Of a stretch of DNA of 41,678 bases, positions 2 to 24,966 are shown in pieces; the stretch's first letter is position 1; each line of letters begins with the position of its first letter. The DNA lies in NCBI GenBank assembly GCA_028357285.1, contig JAOMWM010000003.1:1-41678 (forward strand), written 5' to 3'. The position numbers were made by a program, and so were the translations under genes. The notes beneath the pieces were generated by a model. It was not told where the DNA came from, searched no databases, and saw only the letters and a program-made list of their open reading frames with translations. The DNA comes from Schleiferiaceae bacterium (GTDB lineage Bacteria > Bacteroidota > Bacteroidia > Flavobacteriales > Schleiferiaceae).

Positions 2-2383
2 AAGATAGTAGTAATCCTACTGTTACTGACTTTAGCTGCCTTCTTATTTTGGCCTATTCGTTATTTAATACAAGCAACATGGAGTAATTACTATTCCTTA
101 AATCGTGTAGCTAAGAGTTTAAAAAGTTATGATAACGGAAGGCTCGATGAACTAATAGGTTTATCTGAAAACGAGTTGGATAAATGGGTAAAAGTTGTTG
201 TATTAAAAAAGGTCCACTTAGAATTACCTCTATTTAAAACAACACTAAAAAAAAATATACCGTTTTCAACGATAATTAGGGCGGTAGCTCTTTTAGTGAT
301 AATAATCTTAATAAGTCCGAAATCGATTTTAACTGAAGGCAAGGATGAGATTGTTAGTGGTACCTACAAACGTGAGGTTATTTTACTCAATACAAAAGAT
401 ACTGTTCATACACTATTCAACGAGGTTTTAGTGTTGAATCATCCACACCTAACACCTCTTTATAAAGGGAGTGTTACTGAAAGTCTATTAATAAGGAAAA
501 ATGAAACGATCGATTGGGAACTCAATGGACGGTTCTATAAAAGACAAATGTTGGTGTGTGATAGCGTACCAAAATTAGCGTCCTGGAGTGCTACAATAGA
601 ACCGCCGAACTATCTTAAGCTATCTACATATAGTACTCAAGATACTATTAAAGCATTTAAAGGTTCTATTATATCCATAGCTTATCAAGGTGTGCTAAAA
701 GAAAAAATTAGAGTTAGTGTTTCACGTGAAACAAAGGAAGAAGCTTTTATTTGGGATGGAGGTGTTATTGAATTAAGCACAGATTTTTGGAGTAGAATTT
801 TACCAAGCGTTTTAATAAAAGACTTACCACCAACAATCACTGTGGTTAGGAATACAAATGATTCCCTCATGTTCCTTGTGAATGATGACTATGGATTAAA
901 GAATATCGAATTTGATTCTAAGCTAATTATTAGCAACGGTGTGCGATCAATTATAAAAATTGCTTGGAGTACAAATACAGCGGTAATAATAAAAGCTACT
1001 GATAAAAACAACGGTGTGAGTCAAAGGGAGGTCCGAAGACCTACTCTTAGCGCAACGCAGCTGTTAGCCGCCGCCTCTGACCAAACTCTTCTAAAATCCT
1101 CTGCTGAAAACAAAACAGAGAGACTCAAACAGTTTAGAACACAAAAGCAATTAGAAAGAGAGTTGTCAAATGAACTAAGTAAAGAGGTGTCGGAGGGGAA
1201 GCTGTTTCCGTCGAAAGAAGAGTTCGAGAATGAGGCGTTAGACAAACTACTTAAGCGATTAGATGAGTTATGGCGGATGGAAGAGGCTATTGAATTATTA
1301 AGCAAGGTAGATTCATTGCGTAATGAAGAGTTGGATAGTGCTTTAGTATCCGCCGCCGAGGCCTTAGAAGAGCTTAGTCGAAAGGACATAAAAGAACCTG
1401 TTGACCTTATGAAGAACATTAAGAATGAAGGCAAAACCAGGGAAAAACAAGCTCAAGAGGCTAGTAAAAAGTTAAAAGCGTTGCTAGCAAACGATGTTGC
1501 AGAGGTACAAGAAGATAATGTAGCAAGAATTAAGCGACTTCTTAAAAATAGCTGGGTGATAAGTGTCTTTCAAGAGAGTTTACAAGAGTTGTCTTTAGCC
1601 GTCAATAAAGCAAGATCGCAGCAATTTGTTCTATCAAATGAAAAAGCAATTAGAGATAGTTTAAACTTGTTGTTAATACATGAACCTAAATTAGACCAAT
1701 TACTATCTGAGAAACGTGCTGCACTACACCGTGCGATGCGATCGCTTGAAAACAAGTCAATAAGCGGCAAGGATATAACAACTGATGTGGGCTATGCGGT
1801 GGCGGCGCTAAATGATATTAATCAAACGCTATATTTTCTTTTAGAGAGCGAGAAATCAAATTTAAACCAAGCAAAGAAGGATTGTAAGAAAGGAAAACCC
1901 GGTTCCTCAGGAAAACCGACTTCCGCTGGAAAAGGTAAAGAAGGTGTAAAAGGTTTATCTAAACCATCAAAGAAGTCTGGAGGAAGAGAAAAGGGAAAGT
2001 CAGGAGAACCAAATAAGGGGGAAAACGGCACAAAACCCGGTTCGACAGGGAAACCTGGGGAAAAAGAGTTACTAAAGCGAATAGAAGCGGCAAGTGAAGC
2101 CTTAGAGAAACAAGGTGAGCGCACCGGAAAGATGAATGAAAATCTTGAGCGAATGAAGAAAGAGTTGCTGTTTAACAACGAGATATCTTCTGAAGATTTA
2201 AACGAGTTAGAAGACCGTTTATGGAGTGTAGAAGAAAGCGTGTTTAATAAAAAGGAATTAGGTGATTTACGGGATAGTGAATCAGGCGATGAATCAAATT
2301 CGCAAGAAGGAGAAACCATTGATTTTAAGGTGTTAAAATCTAGAGAGACCGACTTACCTTTGCCTGTGCTGAAGAAGCGTTAG
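2..2383 (+). CDS. DUF4175-like membrane protein, 5' end missing
   Basis: The reading frame is open from base 2, so the gene runs off the left edge; the TTG at 176 is internal. About 793 residues remain, where family members are usually about 1100. The visible N-terminus has one hydrophobic helix (first 25 residues) and a second around bases 265-325. A beta-rich middle part follows, then a long Lys/Glu-rich, probably coiled-coil region. Near the C-terminus is a Gly/Lys/Pro/Ser-rich low-complexity linker (bases 1886-2065), then another charged helical part. Assignment to DUF4175 rests on this architecture and on the position directly before ybeY and mnmG, an order I know from other Bacteroidota. 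The molecular function is unknown. A perfect parS-like site lies inside the coding region at 718-733. The stop is 2 bp before ybeY, so they are probably cotranscribed. Confidence 0.72.
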   Translation, partial: KIVVILLLLTLAAFLFWPIRYLIQATWSNYYSLNRVAKSLKSYDNGRLDELIGLSENELDKWVKVVVLKKVHLELPLFKTTLKKNIPFSTIIRAVALLVIIILISPKSILTEGKDEIVSGTYKREVILLNTKDTVHTLFNEVLVLNHPHLTPLYKGSVTESLLIRKNETIDWELNGRFYKRQMLVCDSVPKLASWSATIEPPNYLKLSTYSTQDTIKAFKGSIISIAYQGVLKEKIRVSVSRETKEEAFIWDGGVIELSTDFWSRILPSVLIKDLPPTITVVRNTNDSLMFLVNDDYGLKNIEFDSKLIISNGVRSIIKIAWSTNTAVIIKATDKNNGVSQREVRRPTLSATQLLAAASDQTLLKSSAENKTERLKQFRTQKQLERELSNELSKEVSEGKLFPSKEEFENEALDKLLKRLDELWRMEEAIELLSKVDSLRNEELDSALVSAAEALEELSRKDIKEPVDLMKNIKNEGKTREKQAQEASKKLKALLANDVAEVQEDNVARIKRLLKNSWVISVFQESLQELSLAVNKARSQQFVLSNEKAIRDSLNLLLIHEPKLDQLLSEKRAALHRAMRSLENKSISGKDITTDVGYAVAALNDINQTLYFLLESEKSNLNQAKKDCKKGKPGSSGKPTSAGKGKEGVKGLSKPSKKSGGREKGKSGEPNKGENGTKPGSTGKPGEKELLKRIEAASEALEKQGERTGKMNENLERMKKELLFNNEISSEDLNELEDRLWSVEESVFNKKELGDLRDSESGDESNSQEGETIDFKVLKSRETDLPLPVLKKR
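718..733. other. parS: parS centromere site (perfect 16-bp match)
   Basis: The 16-bp palindrome TGTTTCACGTGAAACA matches the widely conserved bacterial parS consensus at every base. ParB binds such sites, spreads from them and, with ParA, segregates the origin region. The site lies inside the DUF4175 gene, where it encodes Val-Ser-Arg-Glu-Thr. A given 16-mer is expected about 1e-5 times in a window of this size. A second near-perfect copy lies 3.9 kb away. parA and parB are not in the window. Confidence 0.88.
1886..2065 (+). repeat. Gly/Lys/Pro/Ser low-complexity coding segment
   Basis: About 60 codons of the DUF4175 gene are almost entirely Lys, Gly, Pro, Ser and Glu. Short motifs such as KPGSSGKP and KPGSTGKPG recur, resembling a flexible collagen-like or basic linker. 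The segment separates two charged helical parts. It is not a DNA tandem repeat in the strict sense, because codons vary between copies. Confidence 0.55.
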
Positions 2384-2385
2384 GT

Positions 2386-2781
2386 ATGAGTATTGATACA
2401 GGTTTGTTAGACAGGGTAAAGAGTGCTATTCATGAGCTCCACCCATCTATGCGGTTAAAAAAAATAGATGTTTATGGAGTATCAGACGAAGAGCTGCTGT
2501 CCATAAATATAAAGCACCTGGAACACGATTACTATACAGATATTATAACGTTCGATTACTCAAGAGGTAACAAGATTAGTGGTGAATTATATGTGAGTGT
2601 AGAACGTGTAGAGGAAAACGCGTTGGCTCTAGGCATGAGTTATGAGTCTGAATTAAAAAGGGTGGTAGCGCACGGCATACTACATTTGATTGGATTTAAA
2701 GACAAGACAGAAGTAGAGAGAGCTGTGATGCGCAGTAAAGAAGATGAGGTATTGGCTTATATAGATAAATATGGTTCTTGA
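2386..2781 (+). CDS. ybeY: Endoribonuclease YbeY (16S rRNA 3'-end maturation)
   Basis: This 131-residue protein is a metal-dependent endoribonuclease for 16S rRNA maturation and 70S ribosome quality control. The family core is clear: a TDIITFDYS strand at residues 51-59, a GELYVS strand, and the metal-binding helix with H96 and H100 in [12 protein letters not shown]. The third metal-binding His of the E. coli type (HGxLHLxGyDH) is absent; Asp106 or Lys107 lies nearby instead. I recall the same change in other Bacteroidota YbeY proteins, so it probably does not mean the enzyme is dead. The gene starts 2 bp after the DUF4175 stop, and its last 11 bases overlap mnmG. Confidence 0.93.
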
Positions 2782-4624
2782 CGAAAAATATGATGTAATT
2801 GTAGTTGGCGGTGGTCATGCTGGTTGCGAGGCAGCATACAGCGCAGCTAAAATGGGCGCTAATGTGCTCATGATTACAATGAATATGCAGACCATTGGAC
2901 AAATGAGCTGTAATCCAGCTATGGGAGGAGTAGCAAAGGGACAGATTGTGCGAGAGATAGACGCCCTTGGGGGAGGTAGTGCGCGCATAACTGATAAAAG
3001 CATGATACAATTTCGTATGCTCAACAGGAGTAAGGGACCCGCTATGTGGAGCCCCCGTGTGCAGAGTGATCGAATGTTGTTTGCGCAGTATTGGAGAGAG
3101 CTCCTTGAAGAAACACCTGGACTAAATATGTTTCAGGATATGGTAACAGGACTAAACGTAAGCAACAACACCGTTCATGGTGTGAGAACAGCGTTAGGAC
3201 TGACTTTTGAGGCGCAAACAGTGATACTTACTTCAGGAACCTTTATGAACGGCCTTATACATGTTGGCGATCAGAATTTCGGCGGTGGGCGTGCGGGTGA
3301 ACGCGCAAGCACAGGCATTACTGAAGAGCTAATAACGATGGGCTTTGAGGCAGGAAGAATGAAAACGGGTACACCTCCACGAATAGATGGAAGATCATTG
3401 GATTTTTCTGTAATGGAAGAACAGCCGGGGGATGAACATCCCGGCCAGTTCAGCTTTGAAGGTGATTATGCACTAAAAAAGCAAAGAAGTTGCTGGATAA
3501 CACATACCTCTCAAGAGGTCCACGATGTTCTTAAGAAGGGCTTTGACCGATCGCCATTGTTCAACGGGTCGATTCGAGGAACCGGCCCACGGTATTGCCC
3601 ATCCATAGAGGATAAAATTGACCGATTCTCGGATAAAACGTCGCATCAAATTTTCGTGGAGCCTGAAGGGTGGAACACGGTAGAGGTGTACGTAAACGGG
3701 TTTAGTTCGAGCTTGCCTGTTGAAATTCAATATGAAGCTTTACACAAGGTGAAGGGGTTTGAAAAAGCTAAGTTCTTTAGGCCTGGATATGCGATAGAAT
3801 ACGACTATTTTCCACCGACACAGCTTAAGCACACGCTTGAAACGAAATTAGTGAGCGGGTTGTATTTTGCGGGCCAAATCAACGGTACTACAGGATATGA
3901 GGAGGCCGCATGCCAAGGACTTATGGCGGGGGTTAATGCGGTGTTGAAAACAAGAGGTGACGCACCGTTCATTCTAGGTAGAAACGATGCTTATATAGGT
4001 GTGTTAATTGACGATCTTATTACCAAAGGCACGGAAGAGCCTTATAGAATGTTTACCTCTAGAGCGGAATACAGGTTGTTATTACGTCAGGATAATGCCG
4101 ATATAAGACTAACCAGATTGGGTCATGAAATAGGCTTAGCCTCGAACAAACGAATTTCGATTCTTAACGAAAAGGAGCGACTAATAGCGGATGGGAATAA
4201 AGCGCTAGAGAAAAACCTACCGTTAAATTATATAAATGAGGTTCTAGAACAAAGGGGAGAGAAACGGGCTTCAGAAAAAACAAAGACCAGTAAACTAGTG
4301 GCACGTCCAAACTTAGGGCTTCAAGATTTCAGCGCCAAGTTACAAACAGAGGAGTGGTGGCGCCCAGAGGTTATTGAGCAGCTAGAAATCGACATCAAGT
4401 ACGGCGGATATATACAGCGTGAGCGAGAGAACGTGGTGAAAATGAAGCGTCTAAACAACAAGGCTATCCCGGACAATTTTGATTACGATAAGGTCAAGGG
4501 TTTAAGCTATGAGGGTAGAGACAAGCTTAAGGCGATAGAGCCAGCGACTATAGCACAAGCGTCTCGAATAAGTGGTATAAGCCAAAGCGATATACATGTA
4601 TTACTCATTTATATGGGTAGGTAA
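2771..4624 (+). CDS. mnmG: tRNA uridine-5-carboxymethylaminomethyl modification enzyme MnmG
   Basis: MnmG (GidA) works with the GTPase MnmE to add (carboxymethyl)aminomethyl groups to the wobble uridine of certain tRNAs, using FAD, NADH and a folate donor. The 617-residue length is typical. Visible signatures are the FAD dinucleotide motif [10 protein letters not shown] near residues 12-21, the NPAMGG segment with a conserved Cys near 48, [12 protein letters not shown] at 272-283 with the second conserved Cys, and [18 protein letters not shown] around 367-384. The C-terminal helical domain that binds MnmE and tRNA is present. The ATG lies inside the end of ybeY (11-bp overlap), suggesting translational coupling. 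In many bacteria mnmG lies near the origin, which fits the parS sites on either side. Confidence 0.98.
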
Positions 4625-4625
4625 T

Positions 4626-4641
4626 GGTTTCACGTGAAACA
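4626..4641. other. parS: parS centromere site (15 of 16 bases)
   Basis: GGTTTCACGTGAAACA differs from the parS consensus only at the first base (G for T); the inner 14 bp are a perfect palindrome. It fills almost all of the 19-bp gap between the mnmG stop and the methyltransferase start. Two such sites within 4 kb strongly suggest a functional ParB-loading zone and an origin-proximal location. Confidence 0.85.
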
Positions 4642-4643
4642 AT

Positions 4644-5525
4644 ATGAGAGAGGAGTTAAGACATTGCCCGGCGTGCCTGGGGAAAAATGTATCGTTTCAA
4701 CAAACGGTTAAAGATCACAGCACAAGCAAAGAGGATTTTGATATTTGGTCTTGCGGGGATTGCAGCCACCTATTTACGAACCCACGTGTTAAAGAGGATT
4801 CTGTGGGACCCTACTATGACAATCCGGATTACATTAGTCACACCGATGATGCTACCTCGCTGTTTGCAAAAGTGTACCAAACGTTACGAGGAATTAACCT
4901 TAACTGGAAGTACGGTTACGTTGTAAAATATACTGAAGGAAAATCACTTTTAGACTATGGTTGTGGTACCGGTCAATTTCTTGAGAAAATGGCCCACAAG
5001 GGATTCAGCGTTCAGGGTGTGGAAATAAACCAAGCCGCTCGTACAAAAGCCGCTAAGTTTGGAAACGTTTTCGACTCTATAGAAGATGTTAAAGGACCGG
5101 TACACGCTATAACGATGTGGCATGTATTAGAACACGTTTACGATTTAGACCAATTGCTCGAGGGATTCAAAGCGAAGATGTCGGATAATTCCACCTTGAT
5201 TATTGCGGTTCCAAACCCTGAAAGCTATGATGCAGTTCACTATGGCGCACACTGGGCAGCTTGGGACATACCTATACACGTTCACCACTTTACAAAGAAG
5301 AGTATGAAGACAGTAGTAGAGCGCAACGGTTTTAAACTTCACAAGGTGCTGCCAATGTCTTTAGACAGTTATTACATAAGCCTAATCAGTGAACAGTATA
5401 AAGAGGCTGCTACAAGGAAGAAGATAAAGCATTGGTTGAAGGGTCTTATACAAGGAACAATCAGCAATATTAAAGGAGGAAAAAACAATAAGAGCTCCTT
5501 GATTTACATCTTTAACAAGGTTTAG
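4644..5525 (+). CDS. Class I SAM-dependent methyltransferase with N-terminal zinc ribbon
   Basis: This 293-residue protein has four N-terminal cysteines (C8, C11, C37, C40) spaced like a zinc ribbon. A class I methyltransferase domain follows, with SAM motif I LLDYGCGTG at residues 102-110 and an acidic strand end in VQGVEIN. The segment MWHVLEHVYDL is typical of the Methyltransf_23 type, which often acts on sugar or lipid precursors. The substrate cannot be read from sequence. The start directly follows the parS site. Its stop TAG overlaps the stop of the convergent holB gene by 4 bp. Downstream of mnmG in Bacteroidota a methyltransferase of this kind is common. Confidence 0.85.
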   Translation: MREELRHCPACLGKNVSFQQTVKDHSTSKEDFDIWSCGDCSHLFTNPRVKEDSVGPYYDNPDYISHTDDATSLFAKVYQTLRGINLNWKYGYVVKYTEGKSLLDYGCGTGQFLEKMAHKGFSVQGVEINQAARTKAAKFGNVFDSIEDVKGPVHAITMWHVLEHVYDLDQLLEGFKAKMSDNSTLIIAVPNPESYDAVHYGAHWAAWDIPIHVHHFTKKSMKTVVERNGFKLHKVLPMSLDSYYISLISEQYKEAATRKKIKHWLKGLIQGTISNIKGGKNNKSSLIYIFNKV

Positions 5526-20827: not shown

Positions 20828-21991
20828 ATGATTTCTAAGTTTACTGCCTTATCAGCCTTCGTAGGCTTAATGTTCTTCTCAGCACCTGCGGTAGCTCAAG
20901 ACCACGGTCATGAGAACACACACCTCGAGAACGCACATCAAAACGACGCTCAAAACAATGAAGCGCACGGTGAGGAACTCCACGGTGAGGAAGCACATTC
21001 AGAGGGTCATGGCCATGGAGCGTTTGTACCAGCGTCAGATACTGAAGGAAGAAAAGCGGTTGTTAAAGAGACGGTTGAACATCACCTTGCAGACTCATAC
21101 GAGTTTCATATTGTAGGTCCTGTAGGTTTTCCGCTACCGGTTATATTATTCGACAACGGTCTAAAAGTCTTTTCATCAGCGAAATTCCAGCACGGAGAAT
21201 CAGTGGCGGAAGTTGACGGTCAGTATTACGTGATTCACCACAGTAAGATTTACAAAACGGACGCTGAAGGAAACATGTTACTTGATGAGGCGGGCCATCA
21301 CATTAAACCATTAGATTTCTCTATCACAAAGAATGTGTTCATGATTATGTTCATGGCAGTATTTATGTTCTTCTTGTTCAGAGGTGTAGCAAAGACCTAC
21401 AAAAACAGCTTGGTGCCTAGCAAAGCGGGTCGTTTCCTAGAGCCTTTAATCGTTTTGATCAGAGACGAGATTGCGATTCCAAACATTGGCGAAAAGCATT
21501 ATAAGCGTTACATGAGCTTCTTGCTCACAATCTTCTTCTTTATTTGGTTCTTGAACCTTGCGGGCATGACTCCGCTAGGGGTTAACGTTACTGGAAATAT
21601 TGCCGTAACAGTTTCTTTAGCCTTAATGACCTTCTTTATCACACAGTTTAGTGGTAAGAAAGATTACTGGATGCACATTTTCTGGATGCCGGGTGTACCG
21701 GTATTATTACGTCCCGTATTGGCAGTAATCGAATTGATTGGATTGGTGGTTAAGCCATTCTCATTGACTATTCGTCTCTACGCAAACATGCTCGCTGGTC
21801 ACGTTGTGATCATGAGTATTCTAGGGTTAATCTACATTTTCGCATCGTACACTGCTGCGATTCCGTTTACTGGATTAACATTGTTCCTGTATGTTCTCGA
21901 GTTGCTAGTAGCGGCTCTGCAGGCATACATTTTTACCATGTTGGCGTCTCTGTATTTCGGTGCAGCCGTTGAAGAGCACGACCATCACTAA
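20828..21991 (+). CDS. atpB: ATP synthase F0 subunit a
   Basis: Subunit a forms the half-channels that pass protons to the c-ring. The protein is long (387 residues). A signal peptide (cleavage after about residue 23, SAPAVAQ) is followed by a strongly His/Glu-rich stretch (GHENTHLENAH through HSEGHGHG) and a folded periplasmic segment. Only then do the membrane helices begin, near residue 165. The essential Arg is R316 in KPFSLTIRLYANMLAGH. The last residues are again His-rich (EEHDHH). Long N-terminal extensions of this kind occur in Bacteroidota AtpB. It is the first gene of the atpBEFHAG unit. Confidence 0.97.
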   Translation: MISKFTALSAFVGLMFFSAPAVAQDHGHENTHLENAHQNDAQNNEAHGEELHGEEAHSEGHGHGAFVPASDTEGRKAVVKETVEHHLADSYEFHIVGPVGFPLPVILFDNGLKVFSSAKFQHGESVAEVDGQYYVIHHSKIYKTDAEGNMLLDEAGHHIKPLDFSITKNVFMIMFMAVFMFFLFRGVAKTYKNSLVPSKAGRFLEPLIVLIRDEIAIPNIGEKHYKRYMSFLLTIFFFIWFLNLAGMTPLGVNVTGNIAVTVSLALMTFFITQFSGKKDYWMHIFWMPGVPVLLRPVLAVIELIGLVVKPFSLTIRLYANMLAGHVVIMSILGLIYIFASYTAAIPFTGLTLFLYVLELLVAALQAYIFTMLASLYFGAAVEEHDHH

Positions 21992-22020
21992 CTAAGAGTA
22001 TTAATTAAATTTTATATACT

Positions 22021-22212
22021 ATGGAAATTCCAACTATTGTAGGCGCAGGCTTGATCGTAATCGGTGCTGGTATGGGTATCGGTAGAATCGGTGGTTCAGC
22101 TATGGAGGCTATCGGTCGTCAACCTGAGGCATCTGGTAAAATCCAAACAGCTATGATTATTGCTGCTGCACTTATCGAGGGTATCGGTTTTGCGGCACTT
22201 TTCGCAGCTTAA
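22021..22212 (+). CDS. atpE: ATP synthase F0 subunit c
   Basis: The 63-residue proteolipid has two membrane hairpin helices joined by the polar loop AIGRQPEASGK. The ion-carrying acid is E53 in AALIEGIGF. The Ser/Thr and Tyr that follow the Glu in sodium-binding c subunits are absent, so proton coupling is likely. A terminator-like hairpin directly follows the gene, which may raise atpE mRNA relative to the genes downstream and fit the multimeric c-ring. Confidence 0.97.
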   Translation: MEIPTIVGAGLIVIGAGMGIGRIGGSAMEAIGRQPEASGKIQTAMIIAAALIEGIGFAALFAA

Positions 22213-22222
22213 GAAAATGAAG

Positions 22223-22260
22223 TAGACGGGAGCAACGATTGGTTGCACCGTCTATTTTTT
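22223..22260 (+). terminator. Hairpin with T-run after atpE (attenuator or mRNA stabiliser)
   Basis: TAGACGG pairs with CCGTCTA, and inside it GCAAC pairs with GTTGC around a 5-base loop, with a small asymmetric bulge between. Six T residues follow at 22255-22260. It has all parts of an intrinsic terminator but lies inside the atp operon, so it may end only part of the transcripts or protect the atpBE mRNA. Confidence 0.75.
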
Positions 22261-22293
22261 CCTCATTATAGAATTTGATTTTAATCAAAAAAC

Positions 22294-22794
22294 ATGGATA
22301 AGCTAATTAATGACTTCTCAATAGGATTATTCTTCTGGCAATCGCTGGTGTTTCTTCTTTTGATCTTCGTGCTTAAAAAGTATGCATGGAAGCCTATTTT
22401 GAACGCGGTTAACGAAAGAGAACAATCTATTGAAGACGCTTTGAAAGAAGCTGAGAAGGCGCGTCTTGAAATGCAGTCGTTGCAGGAGAGTAACGAAGCC
22501 ATTTTGAAAGAAGCCCGTGAAGAGCGTGAACGCATCTTGAAAGAGGCGCGTGACATGAAAAACAAAATGATTTCTGAGGCAAAAGACGCAGCGGCTACGG
22601 AAGCGGATAAAGCTATTGTATCTGCAAAAGCAGCTATTGAAGCAGAGAAATCAGCGGCTATTGCTGAGCTCAAGAACCAGGCGGCTTCTTTAAGTATTGA
22701 TGTTGCTGAAAAGATCTTAGGTCAGGAGTTGAGTGCAGAAAACAAGCAAACTGCAATGATTGGTAAGATCATTGAAGACGTGAAATTCAACTAA
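22294..22794 (+). CDS. atpF: ATP synthase F0 subunit b
   Basis: The 166-residue subunit is the peripheral stalk. One N-terminal membrane helix (FFWQSLVFLLLIFVLKKYAW) is followed by KPILNAVNEREQSI and a long charged coiled coil up to the C-terminal amphipathic helix. Repeated heptad Ala/Glu/Lys patterns and the length are typical. It comes 33 bases after the post-atpE hairpin and 8 bases before atpH. Confidence 0.96.
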   Translation: MDKLINDFSIGLFFWQSLVFLLLIFVLKKYAWKPILNAVNEREQSIEDALKEAEKARLEMQSLQESNEAILKEAREERERILKEARDMKNKMISEAKDAAATEADKAIVSAKAAIEAEKSAAIAELKNQAASLSIDVAEKILGQELSAENKQTAMIGKIIEDVKFN

Positions 22795-22802
22795 GAACAG
22801 GT

Positions 22803-23339
22803 ATGAATTACCCAAGAGTCGCAACCCGTTACAGTAAAGCCTTATTAGAATTGGCGATAGAACAAAACGTATTAGACGTCGTTCGCGCTGATGCTACTTT
22901 AACTAAGGAAACGGTATTAGCATCCGGAGAATTAGCATTGTTGCTGAAGAATCCGGTGGTTAAAGCAGACAAGAAGCAGGCGATCTTGAAAGAGGTCTTC
23001 GGTGGAAAAGTGAGTGAACTTTTCGAGGGTTTTATTATGCTGCTTACGAACAACGGTCGCGAAGAGCATTTGGCTAAAGTTTGTGAGAAGTTTGAAAAAG
23101 ACGTTTTGGGGCATAAAGGAATCATCGAGGCTCACGTGGTGAGTGCAGTTGCTTTGTCTCCAGTCGATAAAGAAAATTTGGTTTCGAAATTATCGAGCCA
23201 GTTGAGCAAAGAGGTATTACTCACTGAAGAAGTCGACGCTACCGTTATCGGTGGATTGAAGTTGGAAGTGGAAGGATACCAATTAGATAATACAATTTCC
23301 GGTAAGCTAAGATCATTGCGCAATGCAATGATTGACTAG
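22803..23339 (+). CDS. atpH: ATP synthase F1 subunit delta
   Basis: The 178-residue protein links the peripheral stalk to the top of the alpha/beta hexamer. RVATRYSKALLELAIEQ at the N-terminus, the central FIMLLTNNGREEHL helix and the C-terminal DATVIGGLKLEVEGYQLDNT strand pair are the characteristic family elements. Length is normal. Confidence 0.96.
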   Translation: MNYPRVATRYSKALLELAIEQNVLDVVRADATLTKETVLASGELALLLKNPVVKADKKQAILKEVFGGKVSELFEGFIMLLTNNGREEHLAKVCEKFEKDVLGHKGIIEAHVVSAVALSPVDKENLVSKLSSQLSKEVLLTEEVDATVIGGLKLEVEGYQLDNTISGKLRSLRNAMID

Positions 23340-23385
23340 TTTCCAAGCATTAGAAAAGAAAAACAAAGACCTTAAATAGAGGATC

Positions 23386-24966
23386 ATGGCAGAAGTAAAT
23401 CCAGCTGAAATTTCAGCAATCCTTAAGCAACAATTATCCGGTTTTAGCGATGGCGCTGATCTAAACGAAGTGGGTACCGTACTTGAAGTAGGTGATGGTA
23501 TTGCGCGCGCTTACGGTTTGGCAAACGCACAATCAGGTGAGTTGGTACAGTTCGAAAACGGCCAAAAAGGTATCGTGTTGAACTTAGAAGAGGATAACGT
23601 CGGTATCGTATTGCTCGCTCCGTCTACGGACATCAAGGAGGGAACCACTGTTAAACGCACAAACACTATCGCATCTATCAACGTAGGTGAGGGAGTTGTG
23701 GGTCGTGTAGTGGATACCTTGGGAAAACCCATCGACGGTAAAGGACCGATTCAGGGCGAAACATTTGAGTTGCCATTGGAGCGTAAAGCACCAGGGGTAA
23801 TTTTCCGTCAGCCAGTGAACGAACCAATGCAAACAGGTATCAAGTCAATTGATGCGATGATTCCTATCGGTCGTGGTCAACGTGAGCTTATTATCGGTGA
23901 CCGTCAGACAGGTAAGACAACTGTTGCCATCGATACCATTATTAACCAGAAAGAGTTCTTCGACAAGGGTGAGCCAGTATACTGTATCTACGTTGCTGTA
24001 GGTCAGAAAGGTTCTACGGTTGCAGGTATTGCTAAGACGTTAGAAGACGCTGGCGCAATGCAGTACACTACGATTGTTGCGGCGAACGCTTCTGATCCAG
24101 CACCGATGCAGTTTTACGCGCCATTTGCCGGTGCAGCAATCGGTGAGTACTTCCGCGATACAGGTCGTCCAGGTTTGATCATCTATGATGACCTTTCAAA
24201 GCAGGCGGTAGCCTACCGTGAGGTTTCGTTGTTGCTACGTCGTCCTCCAGGTCGCGAGGCATATCCGGGTGATGTATTCTACTTGCACTCAAGATTACTG
24301 GAGCGTGCGGCAAAAGTGATCGCTGATGATACTATTGCTTCGCAAATGAATGATCTTCCTGAGTCGCTGAAAGACAAAGTAAAAGGAGGCGGTTCATTGA
24401 CGGCACTCCCGATCATTGAAACACAAGCGGGTGATGTATCTGCATACATTCCTACCAACGTAATTTCTATTACTGACGGACAGATCTTCTTAGAAGCTGA
24501 CCTCTTTAACGCCGGCGTACGTCCTGCGATTAACGTAGGTATCTCTGTATCTCGTGTAGGGGGTTCTGCTCAGATCAAGCCGATGAAGAAGGTATCTGGT
24601 ACGTTAAAGCTTGACCAAGCACAGTACCGTGAGCTAGAAGCGTTTGCTAAGTTTGGATCTGACCTTGATGCAGCGACAATGTCCGTGATCAACAAGGGTG
24701 AGCGTAACGTGGAGATTCTGAAGCAAGGTGTGAATGCACCGATGTCGGTTGCACACCAGGTAGCGATCATCTACGTAGGTACTAAAGGAAAATTGAACAA
24801 AGTTCCAGTAAACAAGGTAAAAGCATTTGAAAGTGCACTTATCGAATACATGGAAGGAAATAAGAAAGACGCGCTTAACAGCATAGCTGGTGGCAAGTGG
24901 ACGGACGTAGAGATTGGTGCTATTGAAGAGTCTATTGCGGAAGTACTACCTAACTACGAAGCGTAA
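23386..24966 (+). CDS. atpA: ATP synthase F1 subunit alpha
   Basis: The 526-residue alpha subunit forms the catalytic hexamer with beta and binds a non-exchanged nucleotide. The Walker A motif GDRQTGKT lies at residues 171-178, after the conserved [11 protein letters not shown] strand. [30 protein letters not shown] and the later arginine-rich segment are intact. A short AGAGGA stretch just before the ATG is one of the few Shine-Dalgarno-like sequences in the window. Confidence 0.99.

Follow-up and report, generated by a model that had tools for sequence, protein, structure and literature searches.

Two short palindromes resembling parS bracket mnmG (gidA) in the genome of a Schleiferiaceae bacterium, and the question is whether they act as the centromere of its chromosome, regulate the genes around them, load a condensin or match the consensus by chance. 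The pair was noticed in a stretch of 41,678 bases (hereafter the window), for which the original prediction proposed a ParB-loading region close to the replication origin, naming dispersed near-matches elsewhere or a genome without parB as evidence against it. The window is the start of contig C23, of whose 113,286 bases it covers positions 1 to 41,678; the assembly comprises 1,666,873 bases in 67 contigs and is 74% complete. The sites, their surroundings and their putative partner proteins were compared with those in a sample of 60 Flavobacteriales genomes (own included; 25 from the genus of the window), at 130 distinct mnmG loci (76 further loci, i.e., 80 minus 4 duplicates, were added, and the second mnmG copy of G022 on C183 was excluded) and in 60 genomes (again including the own) drawn from across the class. 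One of the 76 added loci, L147, is labelled Limnohabitans, which is not a Bacteroidota name, and was kept in the count.

Two palindromes on either side of mnmG

Scanning the window against the parS consensus recovered both predicted sites: site 1, TGTTTCACGTGAAACA, is a perfect 16-bp palindrome with no mismatch, while site 2, GGTTTCACGTGAAACA, has one mismatch at an outer base, so that the ParB consensus is matched at 16/16 and 15/16 letters, respectively (Table 1). No third match was present anywhere in the window at ≤ 3 mismatches. At ≤ 2 mismatches the same two places were the only ones in the 1.67 Mb assembly, with no dispersed near-matches, although additional parS sites may be missing because the assembly is 74% complete. 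A reversed control pattern gave 2 matches per strand in this genome at ≤ 2 mismatches (none at ≤ 1 mismatch, and one for the Y/R form of the pattern), and the loose genome count therefore proves nothing alone.

Table 1 Features around the two sites (positions in the window)
Feature	Position	Strand	Remarks
parS site 1	718..733	none	inside the DUF4175-like gene, read S-V-S-R-E-T; core in 16/16 genus loci reaching it
parS site 2	4626..4641	none	between mnmG and the methyltransferase gene; core in 15/20 genus loci
DUF4175-like gene	2..2383	+	holds site 1; truncated by the contig start; no Pfam match itself
ybeY	2386..2781	+	PF02130, E 2.6e-23
mnmG (gidA)	2771..4624	+	bracketed by sites 1 and 2; PF01134, E 8.7e-163
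SAM methyltransferase gene	4644..5525	+	PF13489, E 3.9e-26; start 2 nt past site 2

The placement of site 2 in the gap behind mnmG was confirmed, this gap being 19 nt long (the mnmG stop ends at 4624 and the next ATG is at 4644). The claim that site 1 lies inside a DUF4175 gene stood in part: the site is within an open frame ending at 2383, but the frame itself has no Pfam match, and DUF4175 (PF13779) is matched instead by the genes at the corresponding position in four other genera, in two of them above the curated cut-off and in two below it. Upstream of mnmG, ybeY overlaps the gene by 11 nt and thus leaves no gap there for an upstream parS. The ATP synthase genes of the window (20828–24963) start some 16 kb from site 2. 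A gidA-atp neighbourhood close to oriC is found in other phyla, and the layout of the window is reminiscent of it.

Conservation of the sites in the genus and across Bacteroidia

Within the sample of 60 Flavobacteriales genomes, mnmG was found in 54 (own included) and in 20 of the 25 genomes of the genus. The five genus genomes in which it was not found (G004, G007, G014, G018, and G019) also had no site at ≤ 1 mismatch, a joint absence that linkage predicts. Sequence extends as far as the upstream site at 16 of these genus loci, and all 16 have the core GTTYCACGTGRAAC there, ~2.0 kb ahead of mnmG; the downstream site is kept in 15 of the 20 loci. The loci missing it (G003, G006, G008, G017, and G021) group together on a single side of one MnmG tree branch (support 100/99), and at precisely these five the DUF4175-like gene contains another core site, at a distance of 579 or 585 bp from the first and in the same reading phase; the corresponding residues in other species are VTEEEN, VTEKEN, VDSLRN or similar. 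The loss being matched by this second in-gene site, exactly two core sites are present in 16/16 loci (counted within 9 kb of mnmG, where sequence was available).

Many other genera have their upstream site in the gap between ybeY and mnmG, and for this reason the in-gene site of the genus most likely arose when that gap closed. In this scenario, which rests on sequence comparison, the upstream site of the gap would have been replaced by one located ~2 kb upstream inside a gene; in one subclade the downstream site would then have been lost and a second in-gene site would have taken its place, leaving two sites, in this presumed order of gain and loss. Outside this pattern, G028 and G033 carry an extra core site inside the same DUF4175-like gene that reads V-P-R-G-T, so the gene has probably gained such sites on more than one occasion. 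Descent of the genus site from this extra site was rejected, since the two are 22 alignment columns apart (in a region where the alignment is uncertain).

The in-gene site also offered the possibility of separating constraint on DNA from constraint on protein. Over 16 copies (that of the window being truncated by the contig start), the DUF4175-like gene has a mean nucleotide identity of 52%, and the five codons of site 1 are the most conserved 5-codon window of the gene (0.95 identity, ranking first of 732). A single codon is used in only four of the 56 invariant amino-acid columns with 4-fold or higher degeneracy; three of these four fall in site 1 (GTT, CGT, and ACA, each 16/16), and the fourth sits at the 3′ end of the gene. 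Variation of the core within the genus is confined to its Y and R letters and changes the protein from S to P and from E to G. Selection has kept the DNA letters of site 1 while the surrounding protein changed. Such Y/R variation fits known parS variants.

At the 3′ end of the same gene (window 2351–2365), the codons of an L-P-L stretch are also unusually conserved (CCT in 16/16 and TTA in 15/16 copies), and perhaps mark another signal at the DNA level or one that acts in the translation of ybeY.

At the 130 mnmG loci, 204 core sites were located ≤ 200 nt from mnmG (114 upstream and 90 downstream), one inside mnmG and 56 elsewhere in 1.57 Mb of flanks, while 300 shuffled control palindromes gave 0 each within the same distance and a mean of 0.02 elsewhere. 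For the 110 loci outside the genus, limits of 500 nt upstream and 300 nt downstream of mnmG were applied: the core flanked mnmG in 68, was restricted to the upstream side in 21 and to the downstream side in 5, and was missing from both in 16, which counts against the parS reading. Twelve of these last 16 had a site differing from the 16-mer at no more than 2 letters, but none was present at G051, L187, L189, and L193 (L189 and L193 having short flanks). These data leave next to no probability that the sites are chance matches. Shuffled windows contained on average 0.24 matches at ≤ 3 mismatches and reached two in 5 of 100 shuffles, so a pair by itself could be accidental, but place and sequence are conserved across the genus and the class, and the failure of every control palindrome to fall near mnmG refutes this explanation.

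The class-wide draw gave a similar picture, with the exact core present in 54 of the 60 genomes and in exactly two copies in 39. Among the matches listed (31 genomes), mnmG was on the same contig in 28, and the nearest listed site was within ~600 nt of it in 28/28; in the remaining three, G072 had no mnmG match, and G064 and G110 had mnmG on another contig. In the material as a whole, exceptions that count against a strict linkage to mnmG included G116, with its second site 25.5 kb from mnmG, stray single near-matches in G038, G041, and G048, and G092, with 12 core sites on C24, C28, C40, and C43, 9 of which are on three contigs without mnmG.

Several further arrangements were observed in this material. 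C24 of G092 holds an array of seven core sites with ~99-bp spacing, away from mnmG, and arrays upstream of mnmG comprise 12 parS-like sites in L158 (Flavobacterium) and 9 in L191 (Terrimonas), most relatives having two. A core parS is situated inside the mnmG coding sequence itself in four genomes of other families, L196 (1481 nt inside), G067, G080, and G111. In L133, L148, L201, L188, and L195 (Fibrivirga, Larkinella, Dyadobacter) the site reads GTTTCCACGTGGAACA or ATTTCCACGTGGAACA, 26–41 nt upstream of mnmG, possibly reflecting a shifted ParB specificity.

An alternative is that the palindromes are operators or terminators regulating mnmG and its neighbours, their likeness to parS being secondary. 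Sites often lie ≤ 60 nt from the start or stop of mnmG, where regulators and terminators act, and site 2 ends 2 nt ahead of the next ATG. On the other hand, the upstream site of the genus keeps its sequence although it lies within a different gene at a distance of ~2 kb, mnmG is preceded by an array of 9 sites in L191 and of 12 in L158, the variation in Y and R letters is of the kind seen in parS, and G051, which has no parB match, has no sites and yet keeps mnmG. On the in-gene site, the arrays, the Y/R variation and G051, regulation was rejected as the main role, and we consider it very improbable.

ParA and ParB, the replication origin and condensin

The absence of parA and parB that the original prediction had noted holds for the window and not for the genome: both genes are on C20, in the order parA-parB-DUF5683-dapB, so that the genome with the sites has its cognate partners and is not one without parB. 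The encoded ParB has the ParB_N, HTH_ParB, and ParB_C domains and a GERR motif. It has R and G as the equivalents of R173 and G201, two residues described as absolutely conserved in extant ParB orthologs in the accessible part of PMC7383237 (the register was set from conserved landmarks, not from a structure), in agreement with parS specificity. According to the same text, position 172 is conserved as S, and the G found there in this ParB counts against the reading; K at position 184, as found here, occurs in ~28% of ParB proteins. Together with the conservation of the sites, the R173 and G201 equivalents support the proposed ParB-loading region, where loading itself is predicted from sequence.

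A parB match was obtained in 55 of the 60 Flavobacteriales genomes (own included) and exceeded the cut-off in 54; G014, G019, G030, G051, and G059 had none. The single-contig 0.34 Mb genome G051, which keeps mnmG with neither a parB match nor a site, fits a joint loss. G030 (90% complete) and G059 (83% complete) have parS-like sites but no parB match, and count against the ParABS reading unless their incomplete assemblies explain them.

The predicted nearness of the window to the origin is supported through homology. From each of four complete Flavobacteriales genomes (G027, G039, G047, and G049), 20 stretches of 20 kb were surveyed for GC skew, and a minus-to-plus change was located within ~100 kb of mnmG in 4/4. 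It was clear in G027 and G039, while G049 has weak skew and that of G047 is patchy near mnmG. The distance from mnmG was 542–1611 kb to dnaA and 170–1770 kb to parB in these four relatives; in the own genome dnaA is on contig C5. Contig C23 shows no clear skew flip, 17 of its 23 bins (5 kb each) being positive. DnaA-box matches in the window do not exceed chance (9 observed vs. 9.7 expected), on which ground an oriC inside the window was rejected; oriC itself is thus not shown by these data.

If the sites are parS, their main role could still be to serve as entry points for an Smc-type condensin at the origin, on the model of Bacillus subtilis, where ParB bound at parS recruits Smc-ScpAB (PMC4442127, accessible text). 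We consider this improbable for the Flavobacteriales: ScpA had no match in 60/60 genomes (9 of 14 control genomes were positive), and Smc was not found over the cut-off in any of the 60 (10 of 14 controls passed), with at most 9 candidates scored per genome. Weak Smc matches below the cut-off occurred in 58/60 genomes and were mostly short pieces, the best reaching 60 bits vs. a cut-off of 567, so that none of the 60 genomes was found to encode the Smc and ScpA that an Smc-ScpAB loading site presupposes. In addition, two gut Bacteroidetes are described in the available part of PMC10197239 as having no known condensin, though one of them showed a secondary diagonal. Loading of Smc-ScpAB at the sites is therefore unlikely. 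As an observation on the order as a whole, the 60 genomes apparently have no Smc-ScpAB while ParABS is kept.

A probable centromere anchored at mnmG

Sites 1 and 2 are very probably parS, constituting the origin-proximal centromere of a chromosomal ParABS segregation system. This reading is based on their match to the ParB consensus at only two places in the genome, on the 204 core sites close to mnmG vs. none per control palindrome, on the presence of parA-parB with a ParB that has the R173 and G201 equivalents, on a skew origin near mnmG in 4/4 relatives, and on the frozen codons of site 1 with S/P and E/G changes that track the Y and R letters. By analogy with known ParB proteins, the ParB encoded on C20 would bind both sites and load as CTP-dependent sliding clamps that cover mnmG and its neighbours, and ParA would pull newly copied origin regions apart.

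The system has the same 16-bp palindrome, the ParB_N, HTH_ParB, and ParB_C domains and the origin-proximal position of ParABS in B. subtilis and Caulobacter; unlike there, parAB of the relatives is far from the sites and not beside gidA, and Smc-ScpAB was undetected in the 60 genomes. A parS embedded in coding sequence is already known, as parS-359 of B. subtilis lies within parB, near gidA (PMC4442127, accessible text). In Bacteroides caecimuris and Muribaculum intestinale, parS clusters are likewise close to the GC-skew origin, dnaA is an unreliable origin marker and no known condensin was found (PMC10197239); unlike for the genus studied here, the accessible text of that paper makes no mention of mnmG, coding-embedded sites or site turnover. 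Ori-Finder and GC skew also put oriC beside mnmG in the Flavobacteriaceae Mariniflexile and Algorimicrobium, as far as the available portions of PMC11278836 and PMC12843772 go; dnaA does not fit the skew in Mariniflexile (where one figure legend swaps the oriC and ter labels), and unlike here, parB is not mentioned in PMC11278836. Across bacteria, gidA is among the genes that tend to sit near the origin (PMC2099444), although the accessible text is silent on parS next to gidA in Bacteroidetes. We found no stated link between mnmG and parS for Bacteroidota in the literature, in which subscription papers were thinly covered, and the link may be in print.

A broader reading is put forward more tentatively, as a possibility somewhat short of probable: Bacteroidia would have a centromere anchored at mnmG, typically with two parS, uncoupled from parAB and dnaA and without Smc-ScpAB, and in the genus of the window the number two would itself be selected, the loss of one site being made good by the gain of another, even within a protein gene and at the expense of a changed protein (V-[SP]-R-[EG]-T). 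The mnmG-linked parS would provide a simple marker of the origin region in Bacteroidota, for chromosomes and fragmented genomes alike, dnaA being misleading there. Site 1 would be a clear-cut example of a centromere site prevailing over protein coding, in a genus within which gains and losses of sites can be followed, and the lineage is one in which ParB-parS may be studied apart from Smc-ScpAB.
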